A stretch of DNA of 64,000 bases from Phorcysia thermohydrogeniphila (lineage in GTDB: Bacteria > Aquificota > Aquificia > Desulfurobacteriales > Desulfurobacteriaceae). Below, one piece after another: positions 23,453-27,996 of this stretch (position 1 is its first letter; each line of letters opens with the position of its first letter). The position numbers were made by a program, and so were the translations under genes. A model generated the notes under the pieces. That model made no database searches. It saw only the letters and a program-made list of their open reading frames with translations, and was not told where the DNA came from. The stretch is from assembly GCF_004339575.1 (NCBI RefSeq), contig NZ_SMFV01000004.1, forward strand, positions 124,001 to 188,000, in the 5' to 3' direction.

Positions 23453-24328
23453 ATGTTTGAAGGCATTTACGTTGCCATTCCCACACCTTTTAAGAACGGT
23501 AAGGTTGATGAGAGAGCTCTAAGAGAACACATAGAGTTTCTCATTGAAAAAGGCGTTGACGGAATTGTCCCCTGTGGAACTACAGGAGAGAGCGCAACCC
23601 TTTCCTACGAAGAGCACGAGGAAGTAATAGCCATAACCATTGACCAGTGTAAGGGCAGAGTAAAAGTTATCGCCGGAACGGGCTCAAACTGCACAGAGGA
23701 GGCCATAAGGCTCACAAAGTTTGCAGAGGAAGTAAAAGCAGACGGAGCTCTCCTCATAACTCCCTACTACAACAAGCCAAATCAGGAAGGGCTTTACCTA
23801 CACTTCAAGGCCGTCGCAGAGGCCGTAAGTATTCCAATCGTCCTCTACAACGTTCCGGGAAGAACCGGCGTAAACATGCTCCCCGAAACCGTAGCAAGGC
23901 TTGCCGAAATAGAAAACATCGTCGCCATTAAAGAAGCAACCGGCAACACAAACGTAACGACAGAGATTGTTAACCTCTGCGGGGAAAAAATTACCGTCCT
24001 ATCCGGTGATGACACAACTTTCTTCCCCCTCCTTGCAGTTGGAGCAAAGGGAGTTATTTCGGTTACTGCAAATATCGTTCCAGACAAAATGGCAGAAATG
24101 TTTAAAAAGTTTATGGAAGGTAACGTTTTTGAAGCGCAAAAGCTCCACTTAGAGCTCTACCCCCTCTCAAAAGTCCTCTTCATAGACACAAATCCAATAC
24201 CGGTTAAAACTGCCCTCTGGATGATGGGAAGAATGGAAAAGGAGTTTAGACTTCCCCTGTGCCCAACGACTCCTGAAAAGGAAGAGAAAATCAAGGAAAC
24301 TCTTAAATCTATGGGAGTGTTAAGATGA
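23453..24328 (+). CDS. dapA: 4-hydroxy-tetrahydrodipicolinate synthase
   Basis: Condenses pyruvate with aspartate semialdehyde on the way to lysine and diaminopimelate. TIM barrel of 291 residues: GTTGESATLS (about 43-52), ITPYYNKPNQEG, the YNVPGRTG tyrosine, and the Schiff-base lysine in VAIKEATG. GGAGGAG precedes the ATG. Its stop overlaps the start of the globin-sensor gene (ATGA), and dapB follows that gene. The sensor is thus inserted inside a dap operon. Confidence 0.97.
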   Translation: MFEGIYVAIPTPFKNGKVDERALREHIEFLIEKGVDGIVPCGTTGESATLSYEEHEEVIAITIDQCKGRVKVIAGTGSNCTEEAIRLTKFAEEVKADGALLITPYYNKPNQEGLYLHFKAVAEAVSIPIVLYNVPGRTGVNMLPETVARLAEIENIVAIKEATGNTNVTTEIVNLCGEKITVLSGDDTTFFPLLAVGAKGVISVTANIVPDKMAEMFKKFMEGNVFEAQKLHLELYPLSKVLFIDTNPIPVKTALWMMGRMEKEFRLPLCPTTPEKEEKIKETLKSMGVLR

Positions 24329-25338
24329 ACCTTTCTATGAACTACAGGGATTTTGAAAAACTTCTCTACTTCTTTGAGATAAGAGAAAAAGACGTTAAAA
24401 ACATGTTATTCTTGGGACAGATACTCCTTCCGTATGAGGAGGAATTTGCAGATGCCTTCTACAACAACTTAATGAAATTTGATGACATCAAAGAGTTCAT
24501 TCCCGAAGAAAAACTTAACAAGCTAAAAACGACAATTAGAGAGTGGTACAGGAAACTATTCTCTGGAAAATACGACTCTGAATACTTCCTGTACCTCTTA
24601 AGAGTAGCAAAGGTTCACGTTGAAGAAGGCATCCCCCCTCACTATATCATCGTGGCAATGAACTTCGTTAGCCGTTTCTGCACAAGAAGAATCGCAAGGT
24701 TCTTTTCCGAAAAGGCAAAAAAATTTATCGGACAGTTTGAATGTGAATCCTCCGAAACAGAGATTCTTGAAGACTTTGTTCTTGAGGAAGTCTTTGAAAG
24801 AATGGAGGATCTAACCCGTTCACTGAGAAAGTTGCTTGCCCTCAACGAGGACGTTCTCGTTTCCTACTACGTTGATTCAGAACTTCGTATGTTCTTAGAA
24901 TCAGGAAAATTTGAAAGGTTTACTATAAACTTCAGCAAGAAATTTGCCCTCTTTGTGGACGTTGCTATACTCCTTGGGCTCATGCTCCTTGCAACCTTTG
25001 TAGTGGTTCTCTTCGGAATAGACATTTCCCACGTATTCCACGGAGACCTTTCCCACGGTCTCATTGCAGCACTTGGAGACCTCCTGATACTCTGGACGGT
25101 TCTGGAGCTCCTTAACAGTGAAATTAGGTTCATGCTCGGCGGAGAGCTCGCCGTTAGTGCTTTTGTTAGTGTTGCCTTGGCAGCAACAATTAGGGAAGCC
25201 TTGGTTGTCTCCTTAGAGCACGACAAGCCCATAGAGTTTAAGCTCGGCATAGGATTTCTCATCCTCATTCAGGGTATAGTCTACGGAATCGTCAAGTGGT
25301 TTGAAATCAAAAGGGAGAAAAAGAGAGGTAAAAGATGA
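24325..25338 (+). CDS. Globin-coupled sensor fused to a PsiE-like membrane domain
   Basis: A 337-residue protein with two recognisable parts. Residues about 1-175 look like the sensor globin/protoglobin fold: FADAFYNNLMKF, then REWYRKLFSGKYDSEY, then VAKVHVEEGIPPHYIIVAM, where H98 fits the haem-binding proximal histidine. Residues about 205-325 hold four hydrophobic segments (about 209-231, 246-262, 275-297, 306-323) with ELLNSEIRFM and ALAATIREALVV, resembling the PsiE family (phosphate-starvation-inducible E). The usual output (chemoreceptor or cyclase) is missing, so the signal may act on the membrane domain itself. ATGA overlaps with dapA upstream and dapB downstream show tight coupling. 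Haem binding and PsiE kinship are inferences from motifs. Confidence 0.7.
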   Translation: MNLSMNYRDFEKLLYFFEIREKDVKNMLFLGQILLPYEEEFADAFYNNLMKFDDIKEFIPEEKLNKLKTTIREWYRKLFSGKYDSEYFLYLLRVAKVHVEEGIPPHYIIVAMNFVSRFCTRRIARFFSEKAKKFIGQFECESSETEILEDFVLEEVFERMEDLTRSLRKLLALNEDVLVSYYVDSELRMFLESGKFERFTINFSKKFALFVDVAILLGLMLLATFVVVLFGIDISHVFHGDLSHGLIAALGDLLILWTVLELLNSEIRFMLGGELAVSAFVSVALAATIREALVVSLEHDKPIEFKLGIGFLILIQGIVYGIVKWFEIKREKKRGKR

Positions 25339-26117
25339 TAAAGGTTGCTGTAACCGGTGCTAAAGGAAGGATGGGGAACTTGATTGCCAGCTTAGTCCTT
25401 CAGGATAAGGATTTTAAACTCGTTGGCGTAACGGAAAGGGAAACTACCGGAGTAATTGGAAAGGAGTTTTCGGTAGGCGTAAAGTTCTACTCATCCATTA
25501 AAGAGATGCCTGAAAAGCCCGACGTAGTTATAGACTTTACACTTCCGGAGGCTACCCTCAAGCTCCTTGAAGAGGCTAAGGAGCTAAAAACTGCTCTCGT
25601 AATAGGAACGACTGGATTTTCCGAGGAAGAAAAGAGGAAGATAGAGGAAACTGCACAGGAAATCCCCATCGTTTTCTCTCCTAATATGAGTCTTGGAGTT
25701 AACCTCCTTTTTAAGCTCGTTGCCGAAGTTACGAAAGCTCTAAAAGACAAGGGTTACGACATAGAGATATTTGAAATCCATCACCGCTTTAAGAAGGACG
25801 CTCCCTCTGGAACTGCAATGAGGCTTGCAGAGATAATAGCTGAAAATCTCGGCAAAGACCTTTCAGAAATAGCCGTTTACGGAAGGAAAGGAATCGTCGG
25901 AGAAAGAAAGCCCAACGAGGTTGGCGTTTTAGCTGCAAGAATGGGAGACGTAGTTGGAGACCATACCGTATTCTTTGCAACTCTTGGGGAAAGGCTTGAG
26001 CTCACCCACAGGGCTACGAGCAGGGAAACCTTTGCAAGGGGAGCTATAGTCGCTGCAAAGTGGGTAGCCAACAAGAAAGCGGGACTTTACACGATGTTCG
26101 ACGTTCTGGGGATTTAA
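25335..26117 (+). CDS. dapB: 4-hydroxy-tetrahydrodipicolinate reductase
   Basis: NAD(P)H-dependent step after DapA in lysine/diaminopimelate synthesis. The 260 residues show the N-terminal Rossmann motif VAVTGAKGRMGN (about 4-15), IGTTGFSEEE, FSPNMSLGVN, and the catalytic EIHHRFKKDAPSGTA loop. ATGA overlap with the globin-sensor gene; hisA follows 20 bases later. Confidence 0.97.
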   Translation: MIKVAVTGAKGRMGNLIASLVLQDKDFKLVGVTERETTGVIGKEFSVGVKFYSSIKEMPEKPDVVIDFTLPEATLKLLEEAKELKTALVIGTTGFSEEEKRKIEETAQEIPIVFSPNMSLGVNLLFKLVAEVTKALKDKGYDIEIFEIHHRFKKDAPSGTAMRLAEIIAENLGKDLSEIAVYGRKGIVGERKPNEVGVLAARMGDVVGDHTVFFATLGERLELTHRATSRETFARGAIVAAKWVANKKAGLYTMFDVLGI

Positions 26118-26137: not shown

Positions 26138-26863
26138 ATGTTTGAAATAATTCCGGCAGTTGATATAAAAGGCGGAAAGTGTGTAAGGCTCTATCAGGGA
26201 AGGGCAGATAAGGAGAAGGTTTACTTTGAAAACCCCGTTGAAGTTGCCAAGAGATGGGAAGAGGAAGGAGCTAAGAGGATTCACGTTGTTGACCTTGACG
26301 GTGCTTTTGAGGGAATTCCTAAGAACATAAAAATTGTTGAGGAAATCGTTAAGACTGTTTCAGTTCCAGTTCAGTTTGGTGGCGGCGTAAGGACAATAGA
26401 AGCCGTTGAAAGGTTATTCAGCATAGGCGTAGATAGGGTAATTGTCGGAACAATAGCCGTTGAGAAGCCCGAACTCTTTGAGGAAATGGTAAGAAGTTTC
26501 CCTAACAGAATCGTTCTTGGAATAGACGCCAAAAACGGTAGAGTAACAACAAGGGGCTGGGTAGAGGTAACAGAAATTCCGGCCGTTGAGCTTGCCAAAA
26601 AGTACGATTCTATGGATATATGGGGATACGTCTATACAGACATATCAAGGGACGGAACACTAACAAGTCCAAACTTTGAAGAGATTGAAAAGTTTGCCTC
26701 CTCCGTTAAGAAACCCGTTATAGCCTCTGGAGGTGTCGCAAGGAAGGAGGACATCCTTAAGCTCTCACAAATAGGCAACGTTTCGGGCGTTATCGTCGGA
26801 AAGGCACTCTACGAGGGAAAGGTTAACCTAAGGGAAGTCCTTAAAGAGATTGAAAGTAGATGA
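26138..26863 (+). CDS. hisA: Phosphoribosylformimino-AICAR-phosphate isomerase
   Basis: Fourth step of histidine synthesis. TIM barrel of 241 residues, with the catalytic aspartate in the IPAVDIKGGKCVRLYQG start, VQFGGGVRT (first phosphate site), and the second half with YTDISRDGTLTSPN and VIASGGVA. AGGAGG lies 8 bases before the ATG. It overlaps the RNA ligase gene by four bases (ATGA). Confidence 0.97.
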   Translation: MFEIIPAVDIKGGKCVRLYQGRADKEKVYFENPVEVAKRWEEEGAKRIHVVDLDGAFEGIPKNIKIVEEIVKTVSVPVQFGGGVRTIEAVERLFSIGVDRVIVGTIAVEKPELFEEMVRSFPNRIVLGIDAKNGRVTTRGWVEVTEIPAVELAKKYDSMDIWGYVYTDISRDGTLTSPNFEEIEKFASSVKKPVIASGGVARKEDILKLSQIGNVSGVIVGKALYEGKVNLREVLKEIESR

Positions 26864-27996
26864 AAATCTCCCTTGAAGAAGTTTTAAAGGAAATTGAAGG
26901 CAACAAGTTTTTTAAGGTCATTGAAGAGGGAGGGCTCCTAAAAGTCTCCTACCGATTTAACGCCCCCTTTGTCTTTGATACTCCTCTTAAGAGGGAGCTC
27001 CGCGGTATAACCTTTAATAGACTTACGGGAGAGGTTGTCTCCCGCCCTTTCCACAAGTTCTTTAACCTTAACGAGATAGAAGAGTCAAAGGAGGAAAGGT
27101 TAAAGGGGAAAGAGTTCATCTTCAGGGAAAAACTTGACGGAACGATGGTTCACTTTGCCCTTTACAGGGGAGAGCTCCTTCCTTTAACCCAAAAGTCCTT
27201 CAAGAACGAGCAGACAGAAAGAGCAAAGGAGATAGTAGAGAAGGACGATAAGCTACGGCAATTTATTCTCTCCGCACTCAAAAAAGGGATAACTCCAATC
27301 TTTGAGCTACTAAGTCCAGACTTTCAGATAGTCGTTCCCGTTTCAGAAGAAAAGCTCTACCTTACAGAGCTCCGGCAAAACAACAACGGAAAGTACCTCC
27401 TTGAAAGGTACGAAAGGGAAATCTCAGAGCTCGGCATTCCCCTGCCGAAAAAAAGGGTTTTAACCTTAGAGGGAGCTCTAAAGGAGCTTGAAGGAACAGA
27501 AAACATAGAAGGCTTCGTCCTTAAAGACTTTTCTAAGGAAGAACCTTTTCCCCTCTTTGTAAAACTAAAGTCACCCTGGTATCACGAAAGACACTACATC
27601 TTCACTTACCTTCACAACATCCCAGACCACAAGCTATTTAAGCTGTTCCTTGACGGAAAGGCCGATGAGTTCTTCTCAAAGCTAACAAACAAAAAGCTCA
27701 AAAGAAACAGGATGGGAAAGCTTAAAAAACTTGTAGACCTTTACATTGAACTAACCGAAACTGCGAAGGAGCTCTCCCCTCTCTACGGAAAGAAGAATTT
27801 TGAAAGAAGGGTCTCTAAGGAAACAGAAAGGATTAAGTCAACTTTCTCAAGGGACTTTAAAAAGCTTCAGCTCAGCCCTTCATTCCTTAGGGAATCTGCA
27901 CGGGTAGCCTCAAAGGGAGGGAAGTTTGAGAAGTTTATCGGTATGAAACTCTACTCCCTACTTAAAGAGAAGGAAATTGAACTTAAGCAAGATTAA
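26860..27996 (+). CDS. T4 Rnl1-type ATP-dependent RNA ligase
   Basis: Joins RNA 5'-phosphate and 3'-hydroxyl ends through ligase-AMP and RNA-adenylate intermediates. All nucleotidyltransferase motifs are visible: an upstream RGITFNRLTGEVVSRP then FHKFFNLNE, exactly the T4 Rnl1 signature; motif I KLDGT with the adenylated lysine K91; motif III IFELLSP (about 147-153); motif IV ENIEGFVLKD with E217; motif V KLKSPWY with K235 and K237. The order and spacing follow phage T4 RnlA rather than the Rnl3/Pab1020 family of thermophiles. The C-terminal 130 residues are basic and helical and differ from the T4 tRNA-specific domain as far as I can recall. It is ATGA-coupled to hisA; no polynucleotide kinase partner is nearby. 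Substrate unknown. Confidence 0.85.
   Translation: MKISLEEVLKEIEGNKFFKVIEEGGLLKVSYRFNAPFVFDTPLKRELRGITFNRLTGEVVSRPFHKFFNLNEIEESKEERLKGKEFIFREKLDGTMVHFALYRGELLPLTQKSFKNEQTERAKEIVEKDDKLRQFILSALKKGITPIFELLSPDFQIVVPVSEEKLYLTELRQNNNGKYLLERYEREISELGIPLPKKRVLTLEGALKELEGTENIEGFVLKDFSKEEPFPLFVKLKSPWYHERHYIFTYLHNIPDHKLFKLFLDGKADEFFSKLTNKKLKRNRMGKLKKLVDLYIELTETAKELSPLYGKKNFERRVSKETERIKSTFSRDFKKLQLSPSFLRESARVASKGGKFEKFIGMKLYSLLKEKEIELKQD

Follow-up and report, generated by a model that had tools for sequence, protein, structure and literature searches.

Studied globin-coupled sensors carry an N-terminal globin that serves as the input, and protoglobins are established binders of O2, CO, and NO. One such sensor is GsGCS, a Geobacter protein whose globin structure was reportedly solved in 2009; the full-length protein has a transmembrane C terminus. 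E. coli PsiE, a membrane protein of a separate family, is linked to phosphate starvation. For the outputs of sensor globins, a published census lists STAS domains as well as five groups whose domains were left unidentified (PMC3287990), and a Roadblock/LC7 output has been described for a globin-coupled sensor (PMC4476040). The original prediction, which named only chemoreceptor, cyclase, or kinase modules as the outputs of known globin-coupled sensors, was therefore too narrow on this point. The GsGCS globin is bis-His hexacoordinate, with His66(E11) as the sixth ligand (PMC4476040).

We analyzed a stretch of 64,000 nucleotides from Phorcysia thermohydrogeniphila (the window), in which a gene for a globin-coupled sensor with a PsiE output lies between dapA and dapB. 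The open reading frame at 24325-25338 runs from ATG to TGA as a single open frame and encodes both domains in one chain. The features, in window positions, are as follows.

23453..24328, + strand: dapA, overlapping the sensor gene by ATGA
24325..25338, + strand: globin-coupled sensor gene with PsiE output, 337-aa ORF (Pfam Protoglobin and PsiE)
24346..24882, + strand: sensor-globin domain, residues 8-186 (Pfam; Foldseek to 2w31, 5ohe, and 1or6)
24460..24462, + strand: Tyr46, the predicted B10 tyrosine on the distal side (opposite AfGcHK Tyr45 in the alignment)
24616..24618, + strand: His98, predicted proximal heme ligand (F8) (alignment with solved sensor globins)
24820..24882, + strand: conserved signal helix, residues 166-186, with K169, N174, D176, and E186 (alignments of relatives; end of the GsGCS chain)
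24961..25299, + strand: PsiE domain of four predicted membrane helices, residues 213-325 (Pfam, hydropathy, AF2, conservation)
25335..26117, + strand: dapB, overlapping the sensor gene by ATGA

Domain architecture of the fusion

Both families exceeded their curated Pfam cut-offs in the product of 24325-25338, Protoglobin with an E value of 7.7e-24 (84.9 bits against a curated cut-off of 25) and PsiE (PF06146) with 8.4e-15 (55.5 bits against a gathering score of 23.9). This profile search, which the original prediction had proposed, bears out its claim of a sensor globin fused to a PsiE-like domain. NCBIfam gave no match for the 337-aa protein. The genome-level Protoglobin match at G000:C4:148346-148882 is the globin domain of this same gene, and a genome search found no second Protoglobin or PsiE match in its own genome.

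When the globin half was compared with solved structures by sequence, the GsGCS globin domain (2w31) ranked best, followed by AfGcHK, a stressosome protein, and HemAT. A profile built from 31 Aquificota fusions aligned with 2w31 from end to end, signal helix included (E 4e-45), with twice the bits that it gave AfGcHK. The full-length AlphaFold2 model, which has a shallow alignment behind it, reached a pLDDT of 78 and a pTM of 0.53. Foldseek with this predicted fold returned 2w31 on top (TM-score by target of 0.85) and also 5ohe and 1or6. The N terminus is thus predicted to share the fold of solved sensor globins.

H98 is the His of VAKVHVEEG and, counted along the alignments, falls on the proximal His of both AfGcHK (chain position 99) and GsGCS (chain position 93). 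Y46, counted in the same way, falls on AfGcHK Tyr45, the distal residue there. The alignment of H98, with its retention in Desulfurobacteriaceae, argues for the predicted role of this residue as proximal ligand. The position of GsGCS His66(E11) is Ile71 in the 337-aa protein, which is therefore not expected to be bis-His coordinated like GsGCS; a His at the E11 position was found in 0 of the 104 fusions compared.

The C-terminal half has hydrophobic segments centered near residues 214-232, 245-263, 277-295, and 305-323. Modeled alone with AF2, also from a shallow alignment, the PsiE domain forms four helices (pLDDT 83, pTM 0.68). Hydropathy, AF2, and Pfam agree with the four PsiE-like membrane segments first proposed from the sequence. 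A membrane output domain is supported by the profile matches, by the predicted fold, and by its conservation within Desulfurobacteriaceae. Foldseek found no relative of the PsiE domain in the PDB (best E value of 0.7). Local alignment with E. coli PsiE showed that the core Glu, Phe, and Arg are retained, and the corresponding E261, F280, and R290 are invariant in all 104 full-length fusions. W74 and K169 are each kept in 103 of the 104.

The segment connecting the globin to TM1 (residues 169-212) has a length of 44 residues in 92/104 fusions and of 43 in the other 12/104. In the full-length model, residues 142-237 form one long helix, with a confidence of only 56-60 around residues 190-210, before TM1. 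Mean Lys/Arg counts over the 104 relatives were 3.7 before TM1, 0.8 in loop 1, 2.3 in loop 2, 1.3 in loop 3, and 2.3 in the tail. This pattern suggests an inside-out-inside-out-inside topology, with both termini and the TM2-TM3 loop predicted to be cytoplasmic.

Genome context and distribution

The flanking genes were named dapA and dapB from recognition of their products. In line with the translational coupling noted earlier, ATGA overlaps join the sensor gene to dapA at 24325-24328 and to dapB at 25335-25338, and cotranscription of the three genes is plausible. The order dapA-X-dapB on one strand was found in 14 Desulfurobacteriaceae genomes, including the source genome. The sole break in the order seen in this family is an insert of about 1.9 kb after dapA and before the fusion (L071 3630-5531). 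None of the fusions compared outside Desulfurobacteriaceae showed the dapA-X-dapB order, and their neighborhoods contained no recurrent partner gene.

Could the gene act through the dapA/dapB operon to regulate the supply of diaminopimelate or of cell-wall precursors? The overlaps, and an order conserved in 14 genomes with one 1.9-kb insert among them, would fit such a role. However, 0 fusions lie between dap genes outside the family, and the surrounding block, purA-hisZ-thrC / dapA-X-dapB-hisA, brings together housekeeping genes of mixed kinds. We regard this regulatory role as highly improbable. Since the dap gene order was seen in no lineage besides Desulfurobacteriaceae, the link to cell-wall precursor supply drawn in the original prediction comes down to synteny within one family and goes unsupported, while the gene order itself stood up within that family.

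Other neighbors were seen. An ORF at 26860-27996, RNA ligase-like by eye, follows hisA and is kept in several Desulfurobacteriaceae relatives. A secA-like gene (cluster c5) adjoins the fusion in two unrelated phyla (L056-L058 and L122-L123), which may be chance. Elsewhere, the source genome encodes a cytochrome bd oxidase, and a COX1-type oxidase was not found in it, which makes O2 a plausible signal in this organism.

The fusion itself is widespread. In Aquificota, 97 of 136 genomes match the protein at an E value of 1e-3, some of these matches not being fusions, and all 31 diverse Aquificota members scanned (31/31) matched both Pfam families. Outside Aquificota, 14 of 255 sampled genomes encode a full-length fusion. 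Phylum-wide searches of four other phyla gave fusions in 9/12, 9/24, 3/4, and 4/4 genomes, the remaining match in the 3/4 phylum covering the PsiE part only; the 9/12 count held up in the comparison of the 104 fusions. In a fifth other phylum, 31/51 match end to end and 8 more match from about profile position 60 onwards. Full fusions are therefore present in at least five phyla other than Aquificota. A search of one other phylum with the 2w31 chain gave a best identity of 43%, which shows that the protein hit is not the Geobacter one. The proposed survey of relatives thus found the fusion throughout Aquificota and beyond, and its novelty is weakened accordingly, the globin being nearest to the already solved GsGCS.

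Several single cases accompany this distribution. One Aquificota genome (G077) encodes two different full-length globin-PsiE fusions (L053 and L054), and several genomes of family f4 have, besides the fusion, a second PsiE-like protein that is divergent, stands alone, and measures about 165-185 aa (L073 4957-5469 and similar ORFs). Some Desulfurobacteriaceae, though not the source genome, encode a second sensor globin that stands alone, is about 183 aa long, and has a His in the proximal position; examples are the following.

L076 5679-6227 (G128): stand-alone sensor globin
L077 145-696 (G134): stand-alone sensor globin

Spread of the fusion by plasmid was considered and rejected, because plasmid matches were only EAL-type globin sensors with about 30% identity over the globin. 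A sequence titled Gammaproteobacteria bacterium (L007) shares the fusion with G106, a genome from the class of the source organism, and its title looks misassigned.

Loss of heme ligands and erosion of the globin

H98 is present in 44/50 Aquificota fusions and in 79/104 overall, and Y46 in 70/104. Both residues are found in 67 of the 104, neither in 22, H98 only in 12, and Y46 only in 3. Desulfurobacteriaceae keep H98 in every copy examined and Y46 in all except three copies of genus g4. Another Aquificota family (f5) has Phe at position 98 and has lost Y46 too, and in the fifth other phylum noted above H98 is missing from most fusions. Lack of conservation of H98 had been named as grounds for rejecting the predicted globin-coupled sensor. 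The residue is indeed lost in 25/104 fusions, so heme sensing is not universal for this architecture, but it is kept in all Desulfurobacteriaceae copies examined.

Ligand changes were placed on a tree built from the linker and PsiE only. Parsimony on this tree requires a minimum of 7 changes for H98 and of 12 for Y46. A formal test for correlated loss of the two residues was not significant, with too few independent pairs. The globin diverges faster than PsiE, and more so after loss of H98: at equal PsiE distance (0.35-0.5 bin), the globin difference was 0.69 without H98 versus 0.48, among pairs that are nonindependent. When members lacking H98 were rescanned, some still matched Protoglobin and others did not, while PsiE remained strong. 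Weak Rsbr_N matches occurred in six relatives among the 31 Aquificota scanned. As a mark of heme loss, such a match was rejected, as there was none in three H98-less Aquificota members rescanned.

These losses raise the idea of a heme-independent sensor, in which the globin fold would take a lipid, a protein partner, or a redox signal, as in the heme-less RsbR. The 25/104 fusions without H98, of which 22 are also without Y46, and the at least seven changes on the PsiE tree speak for it. For the source family, we consider it unlikely: H98 is kept in every Desulfurobacteriaceae copy and Y46 outside genus g4, globins that retain the ligands have diverged less, and the weak Rsbr_N matches did not come from the three H98-less members rescanned.

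Genus g14 shows the globin disappearing in place. One locus (L046) has a normal fusion of 299 aa. With the same flanking genes, L045 encodes a protein of only 267 aa whose globin is eroded, whereas in L044, L074, and L075 essentially the PsiE part is left, the match starting from residue 163 or 165 (from 126 in L075). In these g14 counterparts, the PsiE parts cluster with family f3 fusions (98/91). At this locus, PsiE has outlasted the globin. Faster globin divergence, together with survival of PsiE after in-place deletion of the globin, is consistent with input and output being separate modules. Most simply, a heme-based sensor domain would drive a PsiE effector in the membrane, with PsiE as the module kept and the globin as a replaceable input, altered or removed in some lineages. 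The findings most likely to be new to specialists are, we expect, that the ligand was lost repeatedly and that the globin was deleted in place.

The same data bear on whether PsiE is a mere anchor, holding at the membrane a heme globin whose task would be to bind or detoxify O2 or NO, with no signaling involved. Protoglobins do bind these gases, and with a bd oxidase and no COX1-type oxidase found, handling O2 at the membrane would be sensible. An anchor should vary, however, yet PsiE is the more conserved half, has invariant charged residues within its membrane part, and is retained after loss of the heme ligand or of the entire globin. We therefore find a simple anchor unlikely.

Proposed mechanism and known systems

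We favor, as a probable though far from certain account, a membrane-bound globin-coupled sensor in which a heme-based gas or redox input drives PsiE through a helix of near-fixed length. It builds on features that computation shows: two domains, a predicted fold, ligand positions that align with those of known sensors, a spacing and a topology pattern shared among relatives, and a PsiE core that does not vary. In this account, the globin domain lies in the cytoplasm, probably as a dimer; H98 would bind the heme, Y46 would face it from the distal side, and the domain would respond to O2 (or to NO, CO, or the heme redox state). The change would travel along helix 169-212 into the first PsiE membrane helix and alter the TM2-loop-TM3 core (E261, E266, G272, F280, and R290), whose loop is predicted to be cytoplasmic. 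The altered core may then switch the membrane activity of PsiE. Heme binding, dimerization, the identity of the gas, the direction of signaling, and the activity of PsiE are steps that we infer.

The sequence leaves the direction of signaling free, and the link of E. coli PsiE to phosphate starvation would suit the reverse order, in which PsiE would sense the state of the membrane (its potential, phosphate, or lipids) and the globin would be the output, either by a change in heme reactivity or by binding a partner. This order is very unlikely in our judgment, as the globin is the input in studied globin-coupled sensors and retention of PsiE without a globin suits an effector. Returning to a globin that drives PsiE, a bolder version makes PsiE a gated membrane effector, e.g., an ion or proton pathway on E261 and R290, and thus a direct gas-to-membrane switch whose input was rewired or dropped in heme-less lineages; we hold this version to be doubtful. 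If true, such a switch would work without a kinase, cyclase, or transcription factor. PsiE is widespread in bacteria, and because the sensor fused to it here should have a spectrum that can be read, the fusion offers a direct route to PsiE function. Lineages in which the sensor is heme-less, eroded, or deleted at the same locus help to ask what PsiE listens to.

Compared with known systems, the 337-aa protein has E. coli PsiE (PF06146) as its membrane counterpart, with four membrane helices and the core Glu, Phe, and Arg, but E. coli PsiE is 136 aa long and has no sensor domain. AfGcHK and HemAT share the globin fold and proximal His, and AfGcHK Tyr45 corresponds to Y46; unlike the fusion, however, they have no PsiE domain, and their output is either a histidine kinase or a chemoreceptor. 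The heme-less stressosome globins of the RsbR type are a precedent for fusions without H98, but their output is STAS, whereas the 337-aa protein keeps H98 and has no Rsbr_N match at an E value of 1 (Pfam). Searches of an open library of papers returned no paper joining "globin-coupled sensor" and "PsiE" and nothing usable on PsiE-globin fusions or the GsGCS C terminus. The best match in both sequence and fold is GsGCS (2w31, of which only the globin chain was compared), which shares the Y46 and H98 positions and ends in the same K-N-D-E signal-helix motif; it differs at E11, where its His66 corresponds to Ile71 of the 337-aa protein. The unidentified outputs in the census cited above and the membrane C terminus of GsGCS place the fusion among known kinds. 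Taken together, with the fusion widespread and a Geobacter sensor as its closest solved relative, this gene is a member of an understudied known type and not a one-off.
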